IMG/VR virus record: IMGVR_UViG_3300025162_001860
Location: 1-44,455 of that record
DNA length: 44,455 nucleotides
Source: a virus
Direction: 5' to 3' (one strand)
In this document: positions 3,460 through 33,325 of the stretch, piece after piece
How the letters are laid out: each line of letters opens with the position of its first letter
Numbering within the stretch: position 1 is the stretch's first letter
The notes under the pieces: model-generated
Told to the model about the DNA's origin: nothing
The model's database searches: none
What the model saw: only the letters and a program-made list of their open reading frames with translations
Translations under genes and position numbers: made by a program

Positions 3460-3711
3460 ATGAAACCTTCACTTGAAAAGTCTATCGTATGTAGCAATTT
3501 AGATAATTTTAGGTTAGTTCTTAAAAAACTAACCTCACTAAATTATGTTGATACACAAGGCTCAATTTTAGATACAATAGGATTGAGTGAGTATCATTTT
3601 AATCTAGGATTGAAAGTTATTAATTTATATGATAATAAGACTGTTAAGTACGCTGCAGATTCTAAAAAATTAAAAAATACAATTAAAGATATTGAGTTTT
3701 TAAAAAAATAA
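3460..3711 (+). CDS. Unknown protein, 83 aa
   Basis: First gene of the operon driven from 3434. The start is the ATG at 3460; the upstream TTG lies within the -7 element and cannot be in the transcript. The product has a repeated Leu/Asn-rich helical character and a Lys-rich C-terminus. No domain recognised. The next gene begins two bases after the stop. Confidence 0.6.
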   Translation: MKPSLEKSIVCSNLDNFRLVLKKLTSLNYVDTQGSILDTIGLSEYHFNLGLKVINLYDNKTVKYAADSKKLKNTIKDIEFLKK

Positions 3712-4204: not shown

Positions 4205-4229
4205 TTTTTTTTATGTCATAACTTTTTTG

Positions 4230-4237
4230 TATCTTTG
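4230..4237 (+). promoter_or_regulatory. Host-type promoter of the DNA ligase gene, -7 element TATCTTTG
   Basis: A perfect -7 element followed by GTACT. It lies inside the open reading frame upstream of the ligase (TTG at 4227), so it shows that the real start is the ATG at 4263. Confidence 0.8.
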
Positions 4238-4262
4238 TACTATAATAAAAAAAAGATATAGT

Positions 4263-6152
4263 ATGACATTATCAGAGATTTATATTGCATTAGACAACAA
4301 AGATTTCAAAACTGTAGATGCTGAAGTCAAAAAACTTAACAAGCTTTATCGTGAAGGTAATCCCCAAATTACAGATTCAGAATATGATAGGCTTATTGAT
4401 ACAATCAAATTTGTAAATCCAGAAAGCGAAATTTTTACATCAGGAGTTATTGAAACTGTTGAAGTTGACTCTGATAGAAAAGAAACTTTGAAATACCCCA
4501 TGTTTTCTTTGGATAAAGAATCATCATTGTCAGAAATTCACAAATGGATAGTAAATAAAGGATTACCATTATCAACATTACTTGTTTGCACTTCAAAATA
4601 TGATGGTATTTCTATTTTGAAAGATGAAGATACTTGTCTTGCTTGGACAAGAGGTGATGGTGTTGAAGGAGAAACAGTTCATAAGCATTATGAGAGCCTT
4701 TTAGATAAAGGATCTAAGGTTAAAATATTCACAATTGGTGAAATGATTATTCCTAAACCAATTTTTTCATCACACAATTTTGTTAGAGATAATGGAGAGC
4801 CATTTAAAAATGCTCGGAATATGATTGCAGGTCTCAAAAATTCTGATACAATTTCAAAAGATTTAAAATATGCAAAACATATTAGATATGGCTTTGCTAG
4901 TGAGGATTTTACGAAGGACAAAACAGAGCAACTTAACTTTATTTCTGAATATTTATACCCTATACCTTATAAAGTATTTAGCGCAGATAAACTAAGCCTT
5001 GATGAATTAAATAATTTGTTTTATGAATGGGGTAAGGAATATGATATTGATGGTTTGGTTTTTGATATAAACGACAAGGATATTAGGAAGAATTTAGGTC
5101 GTGAAAGAAATAATAACCCAGCATATTCAAGAGCATTCAAAAATCCAGAATGGACCGAAAATACCGAAACTACAATTCTTGATATTGAATGGAATATATC
5201 AAAACAGGGCTATTTGAAACCTGTTGCAAATTTAATTCCAGTGGAATTAGATGGTGTCCTTGTATCAAGAGTAACATTGAATAACGCTAAATATGTGAAA
5301 GATAACAATTTAGGTGCTCAAAGTACGGTTATAATTTTAAGAAGTGGATTTGTGATACCAAAAATAATTAAAGTAACAAAGGCTACAGGATTTAAAATTC
5401 CAGAAATAGTTGGTTCAGAAATATTTTGGAATGATAATGAAGTAGAATTGTGTGTTAAAGGTACAGAAGATCAAGAAATTAAAAAAATTATATCATTTTT
5501 TGAAATTCTAAATACTGATAATGTATCTGAAGGTGTAGTTAAACAACTATACGATGCAGGGTTTAAAACTGTTAAAGAAATATTATATTTAACAAAAAAT
5601 GACTTTGAAAAATTAGATAGATTTGGTAAGAGAAAAGCAGAAATAGTATATAATTCTATAAAAAAAGCAACAACTGATGTTGATATGGCAAAACTTATGC
5701 ATAGTTCAAATCTGTTTGTTGGACTTGGTAGTAAAAAATTAGAATTGTTAGTTCATTTTACGGAAAAACCATCGTATGACGATATTATTAAAATTGAAGG
5801 ATTTTCTGACATTTCAGCAAAATCATACTTAAATAGTTATGATAAATTTTATGAATTTATTAAAGATTTGCCGATTACAATAAAATCTAAAAAAGAAGAA
5901 CAAGAAAATAATAATAGTGATATGAAAACAGATTTATCAGGAATATCAGTAGTTTTCACTGGAGTCCGTAGACAAGACTTGGTGAACGAATTGGAGTCAA
6001 GAAATGGTAAAAATTTATCAACAATTTCAAAAAATGCAACACATTTAATTTGTAAAGATCCAACATCTTCTAGTTCTAAAATGATAAAAGCAAAAGAATT
6101 AGGTATTAAAATTATGAGTGTTGAAGAATTTGAAGAATTCTTAAATGAATAG
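4263..6152 (+). CDS. ligA: NAD-dependent DNA ligase
   Basis: Seals nicks in duplex DNA using NAD+. In order: an N-terminal NMN-binding region with ITDSEYDRL near 37-45; the adenylation domain with the nucleophile Lys in SKYDGIS (Lys about 112); GEMIIPKPIF and NARNMIAG motifs; a YDIDGLVF motif; the OB fold; helix-hairpin-helix repeats near 430-470 and 495-540; and a C-terminal BRCT domain (about 558-629). The four-cysteine zinc finger normally between the OB and HhH regions is absent; only one Cys (in VELC) is left there. At 629 residues it is slightly shorter than cellular enzymes, consistent with that loss. Confidence 0.95.
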   Translation: MTLSEIYIALDNKDFKTVDAEVKKLNKLYREGNPQITDSEYDRLIDTIKFVNPESEIFTSGVIETVEVDSDRKETLKYPMFSLDKESSLSEIHKWIVNKGLPLSTLLVCTSKYDGISILKDEDTCLAWTRGDGVEGETVHKHYESLLDKGSKVKIFTIGEMIIPKPIFSSHNFVRDNGEPFKNARNMIAGLKNSDTISKDLKYAKHIRYGFASEDFTKDKTEQLNFISEYLYPIPYKVFSADKLSLDELNNLFYEWGKEYDIDGLVFDINDKDIRKNLGRERNNNPAYSRAFKNPEWTENTETTILDIEWNISKQGYLKPVANLIPVELDGVLVSRVTLNNAKYVKDNNLGAQSTVIILRSGFVIPKIIKVTKATGFKIPEIVGSEIFWNDNEVELCVKGTEDQEIKKIISFFEILNTDNVSEGVVKQLYDAGFKTVKEILYLTKNDFEKLDRFGKRKAEIVYNSIKKATTDVDMAKLMHSSNLFVGLGSKKLELLVHFTEKPSYDDIIKIEGFSDISAKSYLNSYDKFYEFIKDLPITIKSKKEEQENNNSDMKTDLSGISVVFTGVRRQDLVNELESRNGKNLSTISKNATHLICKDPTSSSSKMIKAKELGIKIMSVEEFEEFLNE

Positions 6153-9801: not shown

Positions 9802-10614
9802 ATGGAAAGAAAAATGATTACGTTTCCTGAAATCGGACAATTCAGGCAAATTATTAAAGTTATCACTGATAACACAAGGTATTCTGGTAAAGACGAAAAT
9901 GGTGATGCTATTTTCGATGCTTCTAAAAGGTTACCAACCTTAACATTCACTGGCACGGTAAAATTACACGGCACAAATGCAGGTGTAACGTTAACTAAAT
10001 ATGGTGATATGTATGCTCAATCTAGAGAAAACGTAATATCAATTGAGCATGATAATGCTGGGTTTGCTTGGATGGTTGAATCTAACAAAGAAGTTTTCAA
10101 AGACTTTTTCAAAACTTTGGATATTAGAGATGCTGACTATATCACTATTTTTGGTGAATGGGCTGGTGGTAATATTCAGAAGGGTGTTGCAATCAACGGT
10201 TTGCCAAAAATGTTTGTTATTTTTGCTGTTAAATTGTCTTATGACGACGAAGCAAAAACTAACTACTTCTTAACCAACGATGAAACAAAACATTTGAAGA
10301 ATGTTGATGCAAAAATCTACAATGTCCTTGATTTTGAAAACTACACCATTGACATTGATTTTGAAAATCCACATTTGTCTCAAAACAAATTGATTGAGTT
10401 GACTATGGCTGTTGAAGCAGAATGTCCAGTTGGTAAGTATTTTTTAAATGAAGTTTTATCTAATAACATTGCATATGAGCATCAAGATAAAATTTGGTTT
10501 GAAAAAGAAAATAAATTTACCGAAGATTTAAAAAAAGATCTTGTACCTTATTTTAAGGAACTTAGGAAAAAATCTACAACTGGTGTAAATTATATTAAAT
10601 TTAATTTAAAATAA
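9802..10614 (+). CDS. RNA ligase, N-terminal half of a split gene
   Basis: The nucleotidyltransferase half of an ATP-dependent RNA ligase (Rnl2-like). The nucleophile Lys is in motif I, VKLHGTN (Lys about 54), followed by SREN near 74-77, FGEWAG near 118-122 and MFVIFAVK near 137-144. The family-typical CPVGKYF ends at residue 214. In intact relatives the EGxV and KxK motifs follow within about 20-30 residues. Here the protein instead continues with an unrelated Lys/Glu-rich tail of 56 residues and stops. The missing motifs are found at 11585-12055, beyond a GIY-YIG endonuclease gene. The start may be 9802 or the in-frame ATG at 9814. Confidence 0.88.
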   Translation: MERKMITFPEIGQFRQIIKVITDNTRYSGKDENGDAIFDASKRLPTLTFTGTVKLHGTNAGVTLTKYGDMYAQSRENVISIEHDNAGFAWMVESNKEVFKDFFKTLDIRDADYITIFGEWAGGNIQKGVAINGLPKMFVIFAVKLSYDDEAKTNYFLTNDETKHLKNVDAKIYNVLDFENYTIDIDFENPHLSQNKLIELTMAVEAECPVGKYFLNEVLSNNIAYEHQDKIWFEKENKFTEDLKKDLVPYFKELRKKSTTGVNYIKFNLK

Positions 10615-10677: not shown

Positions 10678-11568
10678 ATGAAGGAGTATGTTACTTATAT
10701 TATAACTTATAACGGTTCAAAACTACCAAAATATTATATTGGATCAACCAGTAAATCAAAAATATCAAATGGATATCTTGGTAGTATAAAAAGTAATCGA
10801 TGGAAATCAATTTTTGAGGAAGAAATAAAAAATAATAGAAATTTATTTGAAATAAAAATATTAAATGAATTTGAAAATAGAAAAGATGCATTATTAGACG
10901 AATATAATATTCAAAAAGAATTAAATGTTGTCGAATCTACTGATTATTTTAATGAATCTTTTGCTACTGTAAATGGTTTCTTTGGAATGAATGTTGAAGG
11001 ATCATCAAATCCGATGTATGGTAAAAAAAATGAAGTTATTGCAATTAATATAAAAACAAATGAAAAATTACGAGTTAGTAAAGAAGAATTTGAAAAAAAT
11101 AATGATTTGAAAGGTGTTACATTTGGTTTATTTACTGTTGTTGATAAAAAAACAAATAAAAAAATACAAATATCCAAAGAAGAATATTATTTAAATAAAG
11201 ATAAATATATTCATCATAATAAAGATAGATATGTATCACAAGAAACTAAAAAAATATTATCAGATCAAAGAAAATGTATAACATTAGCAAGAGATATATA
11301 TGGTAATTTTTTAAGAGTTCATAAAGATGATATAAGATTTAAAACAGAAGAAATAGGAAATGCGAAATCTACATATTGTTTAATTATAGATTTAGATGGT
11401 AATGAGTATAGAACGTTTAATTTGAAAAAATTTTTTAATAAAAACAATCTTCAATTTCCTAGACCTGAAAACATTAATTCTGAAGGTGTCATAAATTTCA
11501 AAAAAATATCAAAAAAATATAAATCTACAAATGGTTGGAAAATAATAAAAAAATTTTTAACTTTATAA
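10678..11568 (+). CDS. GIY-YIG homing endonuclease inserted in the RNA ligase gene
   Basis: 296 residues. The N-terminal GIY-YIG domain shows TYIITY (GIY position) and YYIGST (YIG position), then NGYLGS. A GSSNPMYGK segment near residue 108 is a NUMOD3-type DNA-binding motif. The rest contains repeated short units (INIKTNEKLRVSKEEF, DKKTNKKIQISKEEY) typical of nuclease-associated modular DNA-binding domains. It lies between the two RNA ligase halves in the same orientation, with its own late-type promoter, so it is a free-standing mobile gene. It probably cuts ligase alleles that lack the insertion. Confidence 0.85.
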   Translation: MKEYVTYIITYNGSKLPKYYIGSTSKSKISNGYLGSIKSNRWKSIFEEEIKNNRNLFEIKILNEFENRKDALLDEYNIQKELNVVESTDYFNESFATVNGFFGMNVEGSSNPMYGKKNEVIAINIKTNEKLRVSKEEFEKNNDLKGVTFGLFTVVDKKTNKKIQISKEEYYLNKDKYIHHNKDRYVSQETKKILSDQRKCITLARDIYGNFLRVHKDDIRFKTEEIGNAKSTYCLIIDLDGNEYRTFNLKKFFNKNNLQFPRPENINSEGVINFKKISKKYKSTNGWKIIKKFLTL

Positions 11569-16138: not shown

Positions 16139-16882
16139 ATGCACATTTATAAGACAACAAATTTAATAAACGGAAAAATTTATATTGGTCAAGAAAAAGG
16201 AAACAATATAAATTATTTAGGTTCTGGTAAAATACTTAAACTATCTGTAAAAAAATATGGATCAGAAAATTTTAAAAAAGAAATTTTACAAACTTGCTCT
16301 GATCAAATAGAATTAAATGAGGCTGAAGTATTTTGGATAAATAGTTCTAATTGCTTACATCCTATTGGATATAATATATGTAATGGTGCCTTTGGTGGTG
16401 ATAATTTTACAAATAATCCTAATAAAGAGATAACAAGAAAAAAACTTAGTGAAAAATCTCATGGATGGATTTTTAATAATTGGTCAGGTCGTACTCATTC
16501 AGATCAGTCAAAAGAAAAAATGAGTGAATCAAAAAAAGGAAAGGCAACAAGAGGAATAGGTTGGCATCATAGCGATAAAACTAAACAAAAATTATCAGAA
16601 AAATTTATCAACATAACATATGAAGAACGTTATGGTGTTGAAAGATCAGAAATAATAAAACAAAAAAATAGAGAAAAAAGTATAGGTAGAAGTTATGATA
16701 GAACTGACATATGTGGTGAAAATAATCCATCTAAAACTCAGGAATCTCGTAAAAAGATATCAGATAAGAAAAAAGAAAGTGATAAAATTAAGATTAAATG
16801 TGAATTTTGTAATATTGAATTTACAAAACCAAATTATATAAAATCGCACGGTAAAAATTGTAAATTATGCAAGAAAAATTAG
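16139..16882 (+). CDS. GIY-YIG homing endonuclease with NUMOD3 and zinc motif
   Basis: 247 residues. The GIY-YIG domain is at the N-terminus (HIYKTTNLINGKIYIGQ, 2-18), with a SGKIL and an E-A-E-x-F-W-I segment at the expected distance. GENNPSKTQESRKKIS near 200 is a NUMOD3-type helix-turn-helix. The C-terminus has CEFC...H...C-x2-C, a likely zinc finger. A TTTAATATATAA motif ends only five bases before the ATG. Its 3' end overlaps the next gene by 16 bases, so it sits directly against the start of a conserved phage gene. Confidence 0.85.
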   Translation: MHIYKTTNLINGKIYIGQEKGNNINYLGSGKILKLSVKKYGSENFKKEILQTCSDQIELNEAEVFWINSSNCLHPIGYNICNGAFGGDNFTNNPNKEITRKKLSEKSHGWIFNNWSGRTHSDQSKEKMSESKKGKATRGIGWHHSDKTKQKLSEKFINITYEERYGVERSEIIKQKNREKSIGRSYDRTDICGENNPSKTQESRKKISDKKKESDKIKIKCEFCNIEFTKPNYIKSHGKNCKLCKKN

Positions 16883-21994: not shown

Positions 21995-23239
21995 TTAGTT
22001 TAGAGTTATGTTAATAACTTTTGGGTTAACTACAAAACCCTCTATTCCATTTGTAAAAACATTTGGAATTGCTTTTCTTAGAATATTATAACTACCATTT
22101 ATATCAGCATTAATAGTCTGATTTGACTTGCTAATTTTGTATAAACCTCTTGATTTACGATATCCACTAAAAATATAATTATTTTTAGTGTTTTTATCGT
22201 AAATTGGTATAACATCTAAATTCAAGAAAGATGCTTTACTGGTATAACTTTCCTCTTGAATGATAACACGAATACCCTCTTTTTCGCATTTATACTCTAA
22301 CATTTGTATAAATCTACTATGTGGTATTTGAATGAAATTTTGATTGGATTTCTTTGACATTTTTGCTTCAAATTTCCAACCATCATTTTTACCAATAACT
22401 AATTTTGATATATTATTTGATACTAATGTTTTAACTATTTCTTTGCTTGCTTTATGCAAATAATTATCTACTTTATTGTTTCTTTTGTTTGTTAATGACC
22501 TTAACTTTCTGCTTGATCTTTTTTTATTTATTAACTCAAGTGTTGATTTCATCAAAGCCATTTTTTTATTATAGTATTGATTTATTGATTTTAATGGTTT
22601 ACCATTAAAAATTAATGGTTGAAATCCTTTAATATTTGAAGTAAAAGTGACCAAATTGCTCACGCCTAAATCAATAGAACCATACCTTTTATTATCTCTA
22701 ACTTGTTGTTTTTCATTAAAAGTATAGCACACTTCAATAATATACTGATCTAACCTTGGTATAATTCTGACACAATCTATTGATTCGAAGTCTTTTAATT
22801 TTGTTGTAAATTCTATATTAGTACCTGATAATTTGATTTTGCTTGCTTTATTAAATATTTTCTTTGATATTGCTTGATAATTATACGATATGATAAATCT
22901 ACCGTTTTCTTTGTTCAAATATTTAGGTTGCTCTGGTTTACCTTTATATTTTGATGGAATTTTACTATAATCTATCATTGATTTGAAAAATGACTTATAA
23001 ATCTTTTGTATCTGAATTGTGGTTGCTGTTGAAACTTTCATAGGTAATTCCTTGAAACAACCTTCAACCTTCATATAATTGAAGAGTTTATTAAGAACAT
23101 CATATTTATTTTCTTTTAAGTCTTCTTTAATTAGATACAAGGATCTATTATAGATATTTTTTGATTTAAAGCATAAATCATCACACTCTTTAAAATTTGA
23201 ATGGTATTTAGTTATTATATGTCTCTCAGTTAATTTCAA
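21995..23239 (-). CDS. tnpB: TnpB (IS200/IS605-type OrfB), RNA-guided nuclease
   Basis: 414 residues. The three RuvC acidic motifs are visible: GSIDLGVSNL (Asp about 190), QEESYTSKASF (Glu about 323) and NADINGSYNILRK (Asp about 379). Between the last two, where most TnpB proteins have a four-Cys zinc ribbon, there are no cysteines, as in one known TnpB subgroup. No TnpA transposase is present. The start is TTG at 23237-23239, with a late-type motif at 23264-23276. The omega-RNA should lie at and beyond the 3' end (around 21950-22100 on this strand) and was not resolved by eye. Intact frame, so probably active. Confidence 0.85.
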   Translation of the reverse strand: MKLTERHIITKYHSNFKECDDLCFKSKNIYNRSLYLIKEDLKENKYDVLNKLFNYMKVEGCFKELPMKVSTATTIQIQKIYKSFFKSMIDYSKIPSKYKGKPEQPKYLNKENGRFIISYNYQAISKKIFNKASKIKLSGTNIEFTTKLKDFESIDCVRIIPRLDQYIIEVCYTFNEKQQVRDNKRYGSIDLGVSNLVTFTSNIKGFQPLIFNGKPLKSINQYYNKKMALMKSTLELINKKRSSRKLRSLTNKRNNKVDNYLHKASKEIVKTLVSNNISKLVIGKNDGWKFEAKMSKKSNQNFIQIPHSRFIQMLEYKCEKEGIRVIIQEESYTSKASFLNLDVIPIYDKNTKNNYIFSGYRKSRGLYKISKSNQTINADINGSYNILRKAIPNVFTNGIEGFVVNPKVINITLN

Positions 23240-24403: not shown

Positions 24404-25432
24404 ATGAAAACACTTTATAGAGTAATTGTTGGTAGTCAATCATATGGAACTAATGTAGAAGGTAGTGATATTGACTACAAAGGTATTTATGCCCAAGATA
24501 CTGATGAACTAATTGGTTTCGGTTATAAAGAACAACTGAATACCAATAAAGACGATACTTCCTATGAAATTAGGAGATTTTTGGAATTGCTTGAAACTGC
24601 AAATCCAACTGTACTTGAAATGCTTTTCAGTCCAGAAGATTGTATTGTTGAAAAACATCCCGCTTTTGATATCCTTATTGAAAATAGGAAAAAATTCTTA
24701 ACCAAGAAATGTTTATTTTCTTTTGGTGGTTATGCAATTGCTCAGATCAAAAAAGCAAAAGGTCTTGATAAAAAAATGAACTGGGAGAAAGATAGAGTAA
24801 CTCGTAAAAGTCCTATTGATTTTGTTTATGCTTATATCAATGGTAAAACTGTTCCAGTTTTAGAATTCCTGAAAAGTAATTTCCTGAAGCAAGATAGATG
24901 TGGTTTAGTTGCATTAGATCACTTTAGAGATTGTTACGCATTATATCATGACTATTCTGGTGATTTACTTTATAGTGGTATTATTGCAGAAGACTCAAAT
25001 GAAGTTAGATTATCTTCAGTTCCTAAAAATCAGAGACCATTAACTGTTGTTTATTACAATAAAGATGGTTACACTATGCATTGCAAAGACTACAAAGAAT
25101 ATACTGAATGGCTGAAGAATAGAAATACTCAAAGATATGTTGACCTTGCAAGTCACGATCAACAAATTGATGGTAAAAATCTTCTACATTGCAGGAGACT
25201 TCTTGATATGGCAATGGAAATTGCACAAACTGGTGATATTCAAGTTCGTAGACCTAATGCAGAATATCTTAAAAGTATTAGGAAAGGTCTTGTTTCTCTT
25301 GAAGATATTATTTCAGATGCAGAAAGAGACATCAAATTATTGGATGATCTTTACAAAAATTCTAATCTTCCAGACAAAGTTGAAAAAGGATTTGTTAATG
25401 AATTATTACTTAAAATTAGACATACACTATGA
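24404..25432 (+). CDS. RlaP/YcgL-like nucleotidyltransferase
   Basis: 342 residues. The N-terminus has the DNA-polymerase-beta-type nucleotidyltransferase motif VGSQSYGTNVEGSDIDYKG: Gly-Ser at 10-11 and the metal-binding Asp pair about 22-24. The length and the downstream KxxxxDFVYAY, AFDHF/ALDHF and CRRLLDMA segments match the family annotated as RNA-repair-pathway nucleotidyltransferase. A third acidic residue is expected further on. Its promoter is the same type as that of the split RNA ligase, consistent with a joint role in RNA end processing. The substrate is not known. The next gene overlaps by four bases. Confidence 0.8.
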   Translation: MKTLYRVIVGSQSYGTNVEGSDIDYKGIYAQDTDELIGFGYKEQLNTNKDDTSYEIRRFLELLETANPTVLEMLFSPEDCIVEKHPAFDILIENRKKFLTKKCLFSFGGYAIAQIKKAKGLDKKMNWEKDRVTRKSPIDFVYAYINGKTVPVLEFLKSNFLKQDRCGLVALDHFRDCYALYHDYSGDLLYSGIIAEDSNEVRLSSVPKNQRPLTVVYYNKDGYTMHCKDYKEYTEWLKNRNTQRYVDLASHDQQIDGKNLLHCRRLLDMAMEIAQTGDIQVRRPNAEYLKSIRKGLVSLEDIISDAERDIKLLDDLYKNSNLPDKVEKGFVNELLLKIRHTL

Positions 25433-26018: not shown

Positions 26019-26026
26019 TATCTTTG
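26019..26026 (+). promoter_or_regulatory. Host-type promoter of the leucine leader and tRNA operon
   Basis: Perfect TATCTTTG -7 element followed by GTAC. It is the only recognisable promoter before the leader ORF at 26088, giving a leader RNA of about 50 bases ahead of the ATG. Confidence 0.8.
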
Positions 26027-26087
26027 TACAAATAAAAATAATTCAAAAATAGAATAAACTTAATAAAAAATAATAATATATAACATT

Positions 26088-26171
26088 ATGAAAACTTTCA
26101 ATAACATCAATCTAGTCCTCTTAAGCCTATTGTTACAAAACAACAGGACTGGGGAAGATACGCTATTGTGA
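26088..26171 (+). CDS. Leucine-rich leader peptide of a putative attenuator, 27 aa
   Basis: The frame ATG 26088 to TGA 26169-26171 encodes a peptide whose core is LVLLSLLLQ. Eight of 27 codons are Leu, using CTA, CTC, TTA and TTG; six lie in the 24 bases 26112-26135. The Leu codon run coincides with the 5' arm of a hairpin (26114-26119 with 26145-26150, plus an inner stem 26130-26134 with 26139-26143). Segment 26147-26154 can instead pair with 26203-26210, the 5' half of the terminator downstream. The genes beyond are tRNAs with Leu-type anticodons. This matches the layout of amino-acid biosynthesis leaders, with tRNA genes as the output. Too short to call by coding statistics; the case rests on the combined arrangement. 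Confidence 0.65.
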   Translation: MKTFNNINLVLLSLLLQNNRTGEDTLL

Positions 26172-26210
26172 GAATAAATATATAAACTCTTAAATAGATA
26201 AACCTCAGTC
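26147..26210 (+). promoter_or_regulatory. Candidate antiterminator pairing
   Basis: GACTGGGG (26147-26154) can pair along eight bases, with one G-U, with CCTCAGTC (26203-26210). This pairing excludes both the leader hairpin (which uses 26145-26150) and the terminator (which uses 26201-26209). The three structures are therefore mutually exclusive, as an attenuator needs. Confidence 0.6.
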
Positions 26211-26236
26211 AAAAACTGAGGTTTTTCTTTTTTAAA
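26201..26236 (+). terminator. Intrinsic terminator (attenuator) before the tRNA cluster
   Basis: Nine-base-pair stem (26201-26209 with 26215-26223), five-base loop and a T-rich tract to about 26233. It lies 30 bases after the leader stop and immediately before the first tRNA-like gene, with no other promoter in between. Confidence 0.85.
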
Positions 26237-26239
26237 AAT

Positions 26240-26339
26240 GTTGGATGGTGAAATTGGTAAACACGTGAGGAAAGAGAGCCTCAGCAGTAAAAAAACTAAA
26301 AAATAAAGTCTGTATGTTAGTTCGAGTCTAACTCCGATA
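26240..26339 (+). tRNA. tRNA-Leu-like gene with abnormal anticodon loop
   Basis: Acceptor TGTTGGA pairs with TCCGATA (two wobbles). The D arm TGGTGAAATTGGTAAACACG is typical of tRNA-Leu, and the T arm GTTAG-TTCGAGT-CTAAC is perfect. The middle is odd. Stem TGAGG/CCTCA encloses an eight-base loop AAAGAGAG with no U at position 33. The variable region is about 32 bases and nearly all A in its loop. The anticodon could be read as GAG (Leu). It may be a degenerate tRNA, an unusual tRNA or a tRNA-like regulatory element. Confidence 0.55.
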
Positions 26340-26361
26340 ACTAAAAAAAAAAATTATAAAT

Positions 26362-26592
26362 ATGAAATTAATAGATGTTGTAAGAAATGATAATATGGCA
26401 CATTTTAGTCATTTTTGTGGTGGTAATTTATATTACACTGTAGAAGTTGAAGGTGATACATATTTGTTTAATATAAGTACAGATCCTAATGAAGTTGGTG
26501 TCGCTGACTTTACAGCAGAAATGAAAGCTGTTACATTAATGAGATATATTAGAAAATGTATTGATAGTGAAGAATTTTATAAGATAAGATAA
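26362..26592 (+). CDS. Conserved phage protein of unknown function, 76 aa
   Basis: Contains NMAHFSHFCGGNLYYTVE and a C-terminal FTAEMKAVTLMRYIRKCI, which match a small family seen in T4-like and other large phages (…MRYIRK). Lies between the tRNA-like gene and the next tRNA, so it is probably part of the same transcript. Confidence 0.75.
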   Translation: MKLIDVVRNDNMAHFSHFCGGNLYYTVEVEGDTYLFNISTDPNEVGVADFTAEMKAVTLMRYIRKCIDSEEFYKIR

Positions 26593-26598
26593 TATCTT

Positions 26599-26678
26599 GC
26601 TCTGATGATGGAATGCAGACATGCTGGCTTAAGACACCAGTGCCGAAAGGTGTGAGGGTTCAAGTCCCTCTCGGAGTA
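26599..26678 (+). tRNA. tRNA-Leu (anticodon read as AAG)
   Basis: Class II cloverleaf. Acceptor GCTCTGA/TCGGAGT, variable arm TGCC-GAAA-GGTG, T arm GAGGG-TTCAAGT-CCCTC. Aligning the anticodon arm to the neighbouring tRNA gives stem CTGGC/ACCAG (C-A mismatch at the top) and loop TTAAGAC, anticodon AAG for CUU/CUC. Shifting by one would give UAA but breaks the stem. It starts seven bases after the previous gene's stop. Confidence 0.8.
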
Positions 26679-26686
26679 CAATAATT

Positions 26687-26773
26687 GGTCCTGTGGTGGA
26701 AAATAGGAAATACACTTTGGTTTTAAACGCCAACGCCCATAGAGGATTGAGGGTTCGAGCCCCTCCAGGATCA
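26687..26773 (+). tRNA. tRNA-Leu (anticodon UAA)
   Basis: Class II cloverleaf. Acceptor GGTCCTG/CAGGATC, anticodon stem TTGGT/GCCAA with loop TTTAAAC giving UAA, long variable arm and T arm GAGGG-TTCGAGC-CCCTC. A second UUA-reading leucine tRNA besides the one at 6661, with clearly different sequence. Confidence 0.9.
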
Positions 26774-26784
26774 CAAAAATAAAT

Positions 26785-26857
26785 GTTCCCTTAGCCCAAC
26801 GGTAGAGGCGATGGCCTTAGAAGTCATACAGTGTCAGTTCGAATCTGACAGGGAATA
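26785..26857 (+). tRNA. Class I tRNA with anticodon UAG (Leu CUA codon)
   Basis: Acceptor GTTCCCT/AGGGAAT, D arm GCCC-AACGGTAG-AGGC, anticodon stem ATGGC/GTCAT with loop CTTAGAA, five-base variable loop, T arm GTCAG-TTCGAAT-CTGAC. The anticodon UAG would read CUA (leucine), but bacterial tRNA-Leu has a long variable arm and this one does not. Its charged amino acid is therefore uncertain. Confidence 0.75.
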
Positions 26858-26863
26858 CAATAT

Positions 26864-26937
26864 GGTCGCATAGTCCAATTGGCAGCAGACATTAGGCTTA
26901 ACCCTATCCAGTGTGGATTCGAATTCCACTGCGACTA
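26864..26937 (+). tRNA. Class I tRNA with a six-base anticodon loop
   Basis: Acceptor GGTCGCA/TGCGACT, D arm GTCC/AGAC, T arm GTGGA-TTCGAAT-TCCAC. The best anticodon stem (TTAGG/CCTAT, with a T-T mismatch) leaves a loop of only six bases, CTTAAC. Reading with U33 gives UAA (Leu); without it, UUA, which would read the UAA stop codon. Either a real oddity or a one-base error in the sequence. Confidence 0.65.
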
Positions 26938-26990
26938 CAATAAATAAATAGTAATACTTATCAATTTTGTCAAAATATGACTATTAATTA

Positions 26991-27002
26991 TTTATATATA
27001 AT
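26991..27002 (+). promoter_or_regulatory. Late-type promoter of the HNH gene
   Basis: TTTATATATAAT, 13 bases before the ATG at 27015. A small inverted repeat (26947-26952 with 26980-26985) lies just upstream. Confidence 0.55.
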
Positions 27003-27014
27003 AATAAAAATATT

Positions 27015-27935
27015 ATGGTAAATAAAGAAGAATTAATAGAGATTGTAAAAAATTCTATGTCATATGCAAATGTTTGTAAGCAAATAGGTATATCATCAGT
27101 TGGTGGAAATTTTAATAAAATAAAAAAATACATTAAACTCTATGATATAAATATTGATCATTTTACTGGTCAAGGTTGGAATACTGGTGATAGATATAAA
27201 TTTTTTGGAAAATTAATACCATTAGATAAAATATTGAAAGGAGAATATCCAACATTTCCTACTAATCATTTAAGAGTAAGATTAATAAAAGAAGGAATAA
27301 AACAAGAAAAATGTGAAATATGTGGAATAACAGATTGGAATAACAAAAAAATATCTTTTCATTTAGACCATATTGATGGTGATAATACAAATCATAAATT
27401 AGATAATCTGAGAATTTTGTGTCCAAATTGCCATACTCAAACAGATACATATGGATCTAAAAAAAGAAGTAAAAAAATTTATTATTCCAGATTAGAATTG
27501 TTAAAGGCAATTTATGAATCTAAAACTTATACAGAAGTCAAGAAAAAATTAAATTTATCAAGAAATGGTGACAATGAAACTATAAAAAATATTTTATTTG
27601 AATATAATGTTAAATTTACAGAAAAAGAAAAAATACAAGATATTATATTAAAAGAAATTGAATTTGAAAATAATAAATTAAAAGAAAAAATAATTAAAAG
27701 AGTCAGAAGATCAAAAGATGAAATATCAAAAAATTATTGTGAATGTGGTAAAGAAATAACAAAAAATGCTAAACGATGTGAAATCTGTGAAAAGATAAAA
27801 CAAAGAAAAGTTAAAGATAGACCATCAAAAGAAGAATTGATTTTAATGATTAAAGATAGTAGTTTAGAAGCAGTTGGAAGGAAGTATAAAGTGTCTGGAA
27901 ATGCTGTTAAAAAATGGTTAAAATTGGCGGTGTGA
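27015..27935 (+). CDS. HNH homing endonuclease inserted in the tRNA cluster
   Basis: 306 residues. An N-terminal helix-turn-helix-like region (EELIEIVKNSMSYANVCKQIG) precedes the HNH core: CEIC near 99-102, FHLDHIDGDNTNHKLDNLRILCPNCH near 115-140, with the first H, the N and the last H and two CxxC pairs. After a helical linker come a second CxC...C-x2-C zinc motif (about 243-258) and a C-terminal helix-turn-helix (SLEAVGRKYKVSGNAVKKWLK). The stop codon lies inside the acceptor stem of the following tRNA-Leu gene, so the insertion is tight against that tRNA. Confidence 0.9.
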   Translation: MVNKEELIEIVKNSMSYANVCKQIGISSVGGNFNKIKKYIKLYDINIDHFTGQGWNTGDRYKFFGKLIPLDKILKGEYPTFPTNHLRVRLIKEGIKQEKCEICGITDWNNKKISFHLDHIDGDNTNHKLDNLRILCPNCHTQTDTYGSKKRSKKIYYSRLELLKAIYESKTYTEVKKKLNLSRNGDNETIKNILFEYNVKFTEKEKIQDIILKEIEFENNKLKEKIIKRVRRSKDEISKNYCECGKEITKNAKRCEICEKIKQRKVKDRPSKEELILMIKDSSLEAVGRKYKVSGNAVKKWLKLAV

Positions 27936-28007
27936 TGTAACTGGTAAACGTGCAACACTCAAAACGTTGTGTCGAAAGGCGTGTCGGTTCGAGTCCGATC
28001 ACCGCTA
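27926..28007 (+). tRNA. tRNA-Leu (anticodon CAA)
   Basis: Class II cloverleaf. Acceptor GGCGGTG/CACCGCT, anticodon stem CAACA/CGTTG (one A-C mismatch) with loop CTCAAAA giving CAA for UUG, variable arm GTGTC-GAAA-GGCGT, T arm GTCGG-TTCGAGT-CCGAT. Its first ten bases are also the last codons of the HNH gene. Confidence 0.85.
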
Positions 28008-28048
28008 CACTTAAATTAAACTTTTTAATTTAGATTTAATATACATAA

Positions 28049-28396: not shown

Positions 28397-28419
28397 TTCG
28401 TCTGGAGATTCCAGATGAA
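28397..28419 (+). repeat. Hairpin repeat, copy 1
   Basis: TTCGTCTGGA pairs with TCCAGATGAA around loop GAT. The unit recurs at 28481 with a CG in place of TG, so a G-U pair here is a G-C pair there and the stem is kept. Confidence 0.75.
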
Positions 28420-28480
28420 ATACAATCAAAAACATCATTTTTAAGTATAAAAGTCACGAATATAAACATTTTAATATAAA

Positions 28481-28502
28481 TTCGTCTGGAGATTCCAGAC
28501 GA
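28481..28502 (+). repeat. Hairpin repeat, copy 2
   Basis: Same 19-base core as copy 1, 15 bases before the ATG at 28517. The two copies bracket an untranslated leader of about 120 bases; the 60 bases between them hold no clear gene. Confidence 0.75.
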
Positions 28503-28516
28503 CAAATAAAAATTAA

Positions 28517-29074
28517 ATGATTAAGCAAGTTTTAGAATCACTAAGTTTTAAAGAATATTTTAATGGTTGTGCAGATGATTTAACTAAATGCTGGTCTGAG
28601 CCACATAGACATTTTCATACTCTAACTCATTTAGGGAAAATTCTTAAATTGATTGAAAATGATAGAGATAAATTATCAGATATTGAATATGATATTTTAA
28701 GAGTTGCCGCAATTTATCATGATATTTCTTGGTTGCCAAGAGAAGACAAATATAATATTTCTGAAAGTATTGAAAAATTTGAAAATGATTTTTATGATTT
28801 AGATTTTGTCTATAAAGATAAAATTGGTGATATTATAGACAGTACGAATAATCACAATTTCAATCATACAGATAAATTAATAAGAATGTTCAATTCATAT
28901 GATATGGATGGAATTCTAAATGGCGATCTACAAACATTGATTGAAGATGGTGATAATGTTTCAAAAGAATTCAATTTAGATATTGATTTTTTTAAAGAAA
29001 AAAGAATTGAATTTTTAGAAAAATACAAGAAATATAATCAAAATATTCAATTATGTATTGATTATTTGAGATAA
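28517..29074 (+). CDS. HD-domain metal-dependent hydrolase
   Basis: 185 residues. The HD signature is visible as FHTLTHL (His about 33-37), YHDISW (His-Asp about 70-71) and a later Asp in the YDMDGIL region. Similar to predicted HD phosphohydrolases of unknown substrate, of the type seen in nucleotide metabolism. Its mRNA starts with a hairpin duplicated just before the start codon (28397 and 28481), which suggests RNA-level control. Confidence 0.8.
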   Translation: MIKQVLESLSFKEYFNGCADDLTKCWSEPHRHFHTLTHLGKILKLIENDRDKLSDIEYDILRVAAIYHDISWLPREDKYNISESIEKFENDFYDLDFVYKDKIGDIIDSTNNHNFNHTDKLIRMFNSYDMDGILNGDLQTLIEDGDNVSKEFNLDIDFFKEKRIEFLEKYKKYNQNIQLCIDYLR

Positions 29075-32059: not shown

Positions 32060-33325
32060 ATGTTTTTAACTTGTAAAATGCGATTGAATAGTTTAGATAA
32101 AATTCATTACGATTTATTAAATGAAATGACCTATCTATCTAAAAATATTTATAATTCAGCATTATATGAAATAAAAAATTATTATAATTCAACCAATTCC
32201 TATATGGATTATCAAAAAACTTGGAATGTAATTAAATCAACAGATAATTATGAAAAACTACCATCACAAGTTGGGCAACAAACACTAAAAATAGCAGATA
32301 GAAATTTTAAATCTTTTTTTGCATTATTAAGAAAAAAATCAAAATATAGTAATTTTGATAGATCAATCCAACTCCCAAAATTTCTTAAAAAAGATAGTAA
32401 TTATGTCTTAATTTATACTAAACAATATATCAGAGTAAAAAACAATAAAATCCATTTATGTTTATCTAAATATCTAACAGATAAATATAAAACAAAATTA
32501 GTTATTAATTTACCAGAATATATTAAAGATAATGAAATAAAAGAAATTAGAATTTTACCAAGAAATAATTGGTTTGATTTGCATATAATTTATGATAAAA
32601 AAGAATTAGAAATAAAATCTAATGAAGAATATCTATCAGTTGATTTAGGTGTTAATAATTTAATGACTTGTGTTGATACAAAAAATAATAAATCATTTAT
32701 TATTGATGGTAAGAACTTTAAATGGAAAAACCAATTTTTTAATAAAAATCTTGCTGATAGGAAATCAAAACTAAAAAAAGTGAATAATAAACATAAATCA
32801 AATAAGATTAATAAATTATATGATGATAGAAATAATTATTTAAGTAGTAACTTTCATTTAATAAGTAAAAGAGTTGTTAATTATTGTATTGATAATAAAA
32901 TAGATAACGTGATAGTTGGATATAATAAATTATGGAAAGAGAATTCACAAATGTCTAAAAAGGTTAATCAAAATTTTGTTCAATTACCTTTTGGTAAGTT
33001 GATTAATTATATTGAGTATAAATGTAAATTAAATGGAATAAAATTTAGTACTAATGAAGAATCATATACATCAAAGTGTGATGCTCTTGCTTTAGAACCA
33101 ATAAGGAAGCAAGAAGTCTATTCTGGGGAAAGGATAGAAAGAGGGTTGTTTAAATCTTCAAATAATAAAGTAATAAATTCAGATGTAAATGGTGCTATAA
33201 ATATTTTAAGAAAAGTAAATAAATGCAAAGGTGAGTCTTTTGTGAAAAAGATAGCTGAAAGTGGTGCTGTGATTGTGCCGATAAAAATAAGACTGAAAGA
33301 TTTATCCTCAGCAACCTTTTTATAA
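32060..33325 (+). CDS. tnpB: TnpB (IS200/IS605-type OrfB), second copy
   Basis: 421 residues. RuvC motifs: VDLGVNNL (Asp about 197), NEESYTSKCDALAL (Glu about 333) and NSDVNGAINILRK (Asp about 378). No four-Cys zinc ribbon. It is only distantly similar to the copy at 21995, so the two arrived separately rather than by recent duplication. No TnpA is present. The 3' end (GESFVKKIAESGAVIVPIKIR) resembles a common TnpB ending, and the guide RNA should overlap it and run into 33326-33400. Confidence 0.85.
   Translation: MFLTCKMRLNSLDKIHYDLLNEMTYLSKNIYNSALYEIKNYYNSTNSYMDYQKTWNVIKSTDNYEKLPSQVGQQTLKIADRNFKSFFALLRKKSKYSNFDRSIQLPKFLKKDSNYVLIYTKQYIRVKNNKIHLCLSKYLTDKYKTKLVINLPEYIKDNEIKEIRILPRNNWFDLHIIYDKKELEIKSNEEYLSVDLGVNNLMTCVDTKNNKSFIIDGKNFKWKNQFFNKNLADRKSKLKKVNNKHKSNKINKLYDDRNNYLSSNFHLISKRVVNYCIDNKIDNVIVGYNKLWKENSQMSKKVNQNFVQLPFGKLINYIEYKCKLNGIKFSTNEESYTSKCDALALEPIRKQEVYSGERIERGLFKSSNNKVINSDVNGAINILRKVNKCKGESFVKKIAESGAVIVPIKIRLKDLSSATFL

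Follow-up and report, generated by a model that had tools for sequence, protein, structure and literature searches.

A short leader region directly upstream of a cluster of leucine tRNA genes in a phage genome fragment is, as judged from its sequence, very probably a ribosome-mediated transcription attenuator with a phage tRNA operon as its output. The fragment, hereafter the window, is a linear 44,455-base virus record from IMG/VR (IMGVR_UViG_3300025162_001860) with 74% A+T. A first-pass annotation of this DNA had read the region as a leucine attenuator over tRNA genes, and this interpretation is supported by leaders and tRNA sets that change together, by covarying pairings and by the placement of the control codons. 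Leaders collected from other phages spell the amino acids of their own downstream tRNAs, and the leucine attenuator is one special case of a broader class of attenuators over phage tRNA operons. Four features can be taken as established at the sequence level: the anatomy, the match between leaders and tRNAs, a positional rule for the control codons and the covariation.

All features of the leader region lie on the plus strand. Sequence inspection identified a Bacteroidota-type -7 box (TATCTTTG, TAnnTTTG) at 26019–26026, followed by a 27-codon open reading frame (ORF; 26088–26171) that encodes the leader peptide MKTFNNINLVLLSLLLQNNRTGEDTLL up to its stop codon and has homologous leaders in alignments A3 and A4. 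The promoter lies where the first-pass annotation had placed it, and the ORF has the 27 codons and eight Leu codons given there. The Leu codons read CTA, CTC, TTA, CTA, TTG and TTA, followed by a terminal CTA and TTG. The first six belong to the control codons (CTA GTC CTC TTA AGC CTA TTG TTA, 26112–26135), a stretch 12–35 nt 5' of region 2 in which the Leu codons begin 14–35 nt ahead of that region. Region 1 (AGTCCT, 26114–26119) is exactly complementary to AGGACT at 26145–26150, within region 2 (AGGACTGGGG, 26145–26154). The antiterminator 5' arm in region 2 (GACTGGGG, 26147–26154) pairs with CCTCAGTC (26203–26210) in an 8-bp helix with one G-U pair. Its partner, region 3 (26201–26210), can alternatively pair through AACCTCAGT (26201–26209) with region 4 (ACTGAGGTT, 26215–26223), which together with the adjoining T tract makes up an intrinsic terminator (26215–26233). 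All three pairings thus exist at the positions first given for them, but the description of them as mutually exclusive holds only for 2:3, the sole pairing that excludes both others; 1:2 and 3:4 can coexist. The region therefore combines a short leader ORF 3' of a putative promoter, an intrinsic terminator ahead of the first gene, a 2:3 antiterminator mutually exclusive with the 3:4 terminator, and control codons tied to the regulated product and located 5' of region 2.

In the whole window, a terminator, a leader ORF and an antiterminator occur together at this one site only. None of 200 dinucleotide shuffles folds as well as the leader (z = -4.3), and its 2:3 pairing is stronger than in 99.5% of shuffles. 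Given the phage Leu frequency of 8.2%, six Leu codons among the eight at 26112–26135 have a probability of about 7e-6, a post hoc figure. A low-threshold Rfam search of the leader returned chance matches only, with no T-box among them, and no T-box match was found in the window. The DNA pattern of the 3' part of the leader had one match among viral contigs, apparently inside a coding gene and irrelevant here.

Leader composition and pairings in related phages

The first relatives were phage contigs found through the nucleotidyltransferase gene upstream of the leader in the window (24404–25432). Four contigs found in this way (L005, L007, L009 and L012) have tRNA clusters, and in these a promoter box, a short ORF and a terminator precede the first tRNA; an example is the leader MKTINNILVLNLCLLLVVVSFGLC ahead of tRNAs for Cys, Val, Leu and Leu. 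The 76-amino-acid (aa) protein encoded in the tRNA operon of the window gave no matches when used alone as a query, and a three-member alignment of it (A1) led to 27 further loci. Second operons in these phages comprise Phe, Glu, Asp and Ala tRNAs preceded by leaders such as MRTLTNIFDFAFFAAEADESLGRSTIVIS, and a search with this leader class yielded 30 loci. The collection was enlarged by tRNA regions from large phage records. A fixed pipeline required a terminator no more than 420 nt before a tRNA and an ATG-initiated ORF of 14–45 codons ending near that terminator, and took as antiterminator the best pairing by complementarity alone, with codons ignored. From this sample of phages with tRNA clusters it recovered 134 attenuators, comprising 81 distinct leaders and 21 conservative (single-linkage) families. 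A search of 84,980 prokaryote genomes (bacteria and archaea) for two leader classes found neither by the method used, which divergent leaders could escape; this speaks against a simple host origin of those leader families.

Leader composition follows the tRNA set from operon to operon. A Gln-only leader (MTTTQQIQQQQINQTD) stands ahead of three tRNA-Gln genes, MKTINNTSKSSSRSSSMSEIRLYS ahead of Arg and Ser tRNAs, MNTITNIASYESYYEEGNLV... ahead of Glu and Tyr tRNAs, MKTINVNIAPVNPQPQDQDP... ahead of Pro and Asp tRNAs, and MTTNSTHKNFSKSHKWFSNQ... ahead of His, Phe, Trp and Lys tRNAs. Across 29 leader families the mean cognate fraction was 0.519, compared with 0.284 ± 0.022 when leaders and operons were permuted (z = 10.5), and 92% of operon isotypes were present in the leader, compared with 67.5% after permutation; out-of-frame readings of the leaders gave cognate fractions of 0.29 and 0.26. 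Because part of the collection had come via leader similarity, the match was tested on families, with the pairing of leaders and operons shuffled. For the 21 single-linkage families, and for the part of the leader 5' of region 2, the cognate fraction was 0.648 vs. 0.323 ± 0.038, a value reached in 0 of 50,000 shuffles. The first-pass annotation had named, as the outcome that would count against it, relatives that keep the tRNAs and lack matching codons or pairing. The opposite was observed: the anatomy is kept and the amino acids of the leader shift with the tRNA set.

The cognate codons also obey a positional rule. Their share is 0.65–0.84 from -45 to -10 nt relative to region 2, falls to 0.37 at -9 to -1 and is about 0.29 within region 2. 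Since region 2 was picked regardless of codons, this break counts as independent evidence. By the known ribosome footprint, a ribosome stalled with its A site on such a codon would have its leading edge just short of region 2, and the break in cognate codons, about 10 nt before the antiterminator arm, corresponds to this one ribosome edge. At the other end, 64 of 74 leaders have their stop codon 20–29 nt ahead of the terminator stem.

Covariation in related phages, which had been suggested as a check on the pairings, was found for both the 2:3 and the 3:4 helix. In an alignment of 25 Cys-Val-Leu-class leaders, the window included, the covariation score of 2:3 was 0.396 compared with 0.283 for shuffled alignments (0 of 500), with double changes in six of eight pairs; that of 3:4 was 0.407 compared with 0.219 (0 of 500), with double changes in 11 of 12 pairs. 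Partners slid by one to three columns as a control gave much lower covariation measures. Summed over families, 2:3 complementarity reached 530 (shuffles: mean 377, maximum 411). Part of the 2:3 conservation is coding, as one arm lies within the leader ORF.

The sequence TAnnTTTG, known as the Bacteroidota -7 box, occurs no more than 130 nt upstream of 71 of the 81 distinct leaders (mean of shuffles, 4.2), and 60 of the 81 also have TTG 17–26 nt further up, a -33-like spacing (shuffles, 0.3). Most of these tRNA operons thus probably have a promoter of their own, and the frequency of the box indicates that these phages probably infect Bacteroidota.

Large and cultured phages

Division of the amino acids among several operons is most complete in the 306-kb contig G011, where every one of the 20 amino acids belongs to just one of four attenuated operons (Cys, Val, Leu; Phe, Glu, Asp, Ala; Pro, Gln, Tyr, Thr, Gly, Lys; and Ser, His, Trp, Ile, Met, Asn, Arg). 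In the scanned regions of two huge phages, 52 of 55 (LR745206) and 34 of 36 tRNAs (LR756502) are under such leaders.

Four cultured phages with hosts in other phyla, which were not picked by leader similarity, carry the same arrangement. Tunturi_5, whose host belongs to the Acidobacteriota, has three attenuators, the third annotated only as hypothetical gp308, and also encodes a tRNA splicing ligase; the paper describing it gives a list of its 43 tRNAs and makes no mention of attenuation or of leaders (PMC11924767). In Bacillus phage G, gp86 (58381–58515, MMKCSWFEFDTDFTDVFYCEYTFYSLYTF...) precedes tRNAs for Cys, Asp, Phe, Tyr, Glu, Thr and Ser and a tRNA annotated as Trp. Caulobacter phage CcrColossus has the leader MMTYRNNVRQIRVRQFNLAGR... 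ahead of Val, Ile, Gln, Asn and Arg tRNAs, and its antiterminator spans 11 bp (CTTGGCGGGCC/GGCCCGCCAGG, one G-U or better throughout). A second attenuator in this phage is probable, with the leader MTFSTHKPSTLKPATGAASLAHASLL... ahead of Pro, Lys, Leu, His, Ala and Ser tRNAs. Agrobacterium phage Atu_ph07 has gp469 ahead of Ala, Arg, Phe, Pro, Ile, Tyr, Trp, Met, Glu, Val and Gln tRNAs, with a 9-bp antiterminator (CCGGTTCCG/CGGAACCGG). The leaders of the cultured phages outscore all 46 decoy ORFs located before other terminators, except that of Atu_ph07, which is equalled by one decoy. A scan of T4, T5 and RaK2 found no leader ahead of their tRNAs, and PTm1 has no tRNAs.

Two further loci resemble these arrangements. 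In Prevotella phage Lak-C1 (L102), a possible single leader (MRQFNNIYKNNVDIYADSFNWYEQVRCAC, 3481–3594, reverse strand), weaker than the others, lies before a long mixed tRNA array. In Xanthomonas phage XacN1 (L133), the ORF MLITAKASFAVPVAVTISRPHGMT (5483–5557) lies ahead of Ala, Val, His, Ser and Arg tRNAs; no clear intrinsic terminator was found at this ORF, and the locus is suggestive only of a possibly related design. We also observed tRNAs with stop-codon anticodons (TCA, CTA, TTA), possibly suppressor tRNAs, in attenuator-bearing large phages and in other jumbo phages (L107 at 5367, L085 at 6805, L106 at 5607, L125 at 9433, and L132 at 8048 and 8131), some of them inside attenuated operons.

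Proposed mechanism and alternatives

Stalling, read-through and feedback are what we infer from this anatomy. Transcription would start at about 26030, just 3' of the -7 box, and a ribosome would translate the 27-codon leader. With ample charged tRNA-Leu the ribosome would enter region 2 and reach the stop codon; with region 2 covered, the 3:4 hairpin would form and transcription would terminate near 26224–26233. With charged tRNA-Leu in short supply it would stall at the Leu codons of 26112–26135 and leave region 2 free, the 2:3 helix would form before region 4 is synthesized, and the polymerase would continue into the leucine tRNA genes. The new tRNAs, once charged, would refill the sensed pool, relieve the stall and close the gate, which amounts to negative feedback. 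In related large phages, several attenuators would each list the amino acids of their own operon, and a stall at any listed codon would suffice. Folding of the window leader agrees with this order of events: in a snapshot taken prior to synthesis of region 4, eight of eight 2:3 pairs form whichever of the six upstream Leu codons the ribosome occupies, and with a ribosome at the stop codon 3:4 forms and zero of eight 2:3 pairs remain, a result that follows in part from masking everything upstream.

That last caveat is one of several points that weigh against a ribosome-mediated attenuator over tRNA genes. In the snapshot with no ribosome, 1:2 is absent and 2:3 is favoured, so that an untranslated leader may default to read-through, unlike in classical attenuators, whose 1:2 hairpin is strong. 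When the whole leader is folded, the terminator often prevails although region 2 is unobstructed, which makes the switch dependent on folding kinetics. Over families, the 1:2 pairing does not reach significance (348 vs. 327, shuffle maximum 361); proposed as a general element of the attenuator, it is present in the window and lacks support across relatives. Matching of codons to anticodons beyond amino acid identity is weak, with 760 of 889 codons readable and 705 expected. The composition of the window leader is itself only moderately unusual, as 3 of the 46 decoy ORFs equal its Leu content over 15 codons. Finally, some tRNA clusters have no detectable leader, namely the second of phage G and parts of those in Lak-C1, L024 and L037.

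What the attenuator would serve is a further question. More tRNA is useful only when tRNA, and not amino acid, is limiting, which favours sensing of tRNA demand or loss. More speculatively, the natural trigger might be demand imposed by the phage through codon usage, decay of host tRNAs, or tRNA-cleaving immunity by anticodon nucleases. The window encodes an RNA ligase (phrog_548, 9802–10614) that may repair cleaved tRNA; this ligase and the tRNA ligase of Tunturi_5 fit the sensing of tRNA demand or loss without separating these cases. An attenuator that is real but senses general host amino-acid starvation, tRNA refill or counter-cleavage not being its purpose, we consider unlikely. Classical attenuators do sense starvation, and charging drops under starvation and tRNA loss alike, so that sequence cannot separate the two; yet extra tRNA would not raise charged tRNA under starvation, which leaves the tRNA output unexplained, and the two ligases fit tRNA damage. 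We are evenly divided on a wider proposal, in which large phages of several bacterial phyla would use a panel of attenuators to follow how well all 20 tRNA families are charged and would supply replacement tRNAs as needed, one operon at a time. Such a panel would be a sensor-effector circuit directed at the loss of host tRNAs, cleavage by anti-phage nucleases included.

The remaining alternatives concern what the leader is. That the peptide itself acts, as a nascent arrest peptide or a small protein whose function dictates its composition, might be suggested by the N-terminal motifs shared within families (e.g., MKTINNI and MRTFNNIFDF), but is very unlikely given that leaders without common sequence follow the same rule of composition and position, and that what they match is a tRNA inventory and not a motif. 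It is highly improbable that a real attenuator targets the 76-aa protein and the HNH endonuclease encoded in the operon, with the tRNAs as passengers: the 76-aa family is present in many operons and the first gene past the terminator is sometimes a degenerate tRNA, but in each operon the leader set tracks the tRNAs, also in phages and operons that have other protein genes or none, as in the Gln-only and Glu/Tyr operons above. A chance short ORF beside the ordinary terminator of an upstream gene, with tRNAs under no attenuator, is scarcely credible, even though AT-rich genomes in general abound in short ORFs rich in Leu and, for the window alone, a few decoys reach the same Leu content, because the anatomy recurs before 134 tRNA operons with matching composition, dedicated promoters and covarying pairings, and because the permutation test contradicts it.

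Attenuation of tRNA operons as proposed here shares its mechanism with the his, trp, leu, ilv, thr and pheST attenuators, in which a leader ORF carries control codons just 5' of region 2, the stop codon falls shortly before the terminator and a 2:3 pairing excludes an intrinsic 3:4 terminator. Leaders with several amino acids are known from ilvGMEDA (Leu, Val, Ile) and thr (Thr, Ile), whereas the phage leaders list up to a dozen or more, and the set in one genome can divide all 20. The phage attenuators further differ in occurring in phages and in having tRNA genes as output instead of biosynthetic enzymes or a synthetase; the window operon yields tRNAs, the 76-aa protein and an HNH nuclease, and not products that make the sensed amino acid. 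T-box riboswitches likewise sense tRNA charging and control transcription, there of aminoacyl-tRNA synthetase and related genes, but their RNA binds uncharged tRNA directly and has no leader peptide, whereas the phage attenuators have a coding leader. Phage tRNA clusters have been proposed to counter tRNA-cleaving defences (eLife 2023, PMC10264068), and evasion of a retron by phage tRNAs has been described (PMC11555353). These works share with our proposal the replacement of host tRNAs lost or cleaved in infection, and differ in that they appear to deal with the choice of encoded tRNAs and with how resistant these are. The first-pass annotation knew of no attenuator with phage tRNA genes as output, and the open-licence full-text literature held no description of attenuation or charging-dependent regulation of phage tRNA genes, although a report in a subscription journal could be missed. 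To our knowledge, then, classical ribosome-mediated attenuation is the known part, and tRNA output, inventory-like leaders, division of all amino acids and occurrence in phages are new.

The role of tRNA genes in phages is the subject of a decades-old debate, with codon compensation and replacement of cleaved tRNAs as the opposing answers. If the attenuator is as proposed, phage tRNA genes would be conditional supplies, made on shortage of the same charged tRNAs, and each leader sequence would record which shortages its phage is selected to meet. The debate would become directly testable in cultured phages such as Bacillus phage G, CcrColossus and Tunturi_5. As far as we have found, this would be the first attenuator family with a tRNA product, and its members would be natural multi-codon sensors of tRNA charging.

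The tRNA operon and neighbouring genes

Downstream of the leader the operon runs on the plus strand. Directly 3' of the terminator lies a degenerate class II tRNA-like gene (26239–26340; Rfam RF00005, 33.9 bits, no ARAGORN call) without U33 or a normal anticodon loop. It occupies the place of tRNA-Cys in relatives, and may be a decayed tRNA that changed the amino-acid set of the leader, or a processing signal. The 76-aa protein (26362–26592), conserved within the tRNA operons of relatives (alignment A1, 27 related loci), is followed by tRNA-Leu genes with anticodons AAG (26599–26679), UAA (26687–26774) and UAG (26785–26858) and, further on, CAA (27926–28008), each called by both ARAGORN and Rfam. 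A further tRNA with an unusual anticodon loop (GCTTAACC, 26864–26937), probably also Leu, was recognized by Rfam only (40.8 bits). The leucine-type tRNAs of the first-pass annotation are thereby borne out. An HNH homing endonuclease gene (27015–27935; PF01844 at 20.9 bits, just below the curated cut-off, with DNA similarity to phage HNH genes) is inserted in the operon. Some HNH or homing endonuclease genes likewise sit among the tRNA genes of an operon; one in L012 (14534–15028) apparently interrupts a tRNA-Leu-like gene.

Elsewhere in the window are further HNH or homing endonuclease genes (10678–11568 and 16139–16882), an NAD-dependent DNA ligase (4227–6152), a TnpB/OrfB-like IS605 protein (32060–33325) and a separate transposase (21995–23239). 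A short palindrome is repeated at 28400–28420 and 28480–28502 (CTGGAGATTCCAG context), upstream of the gene at 28517.

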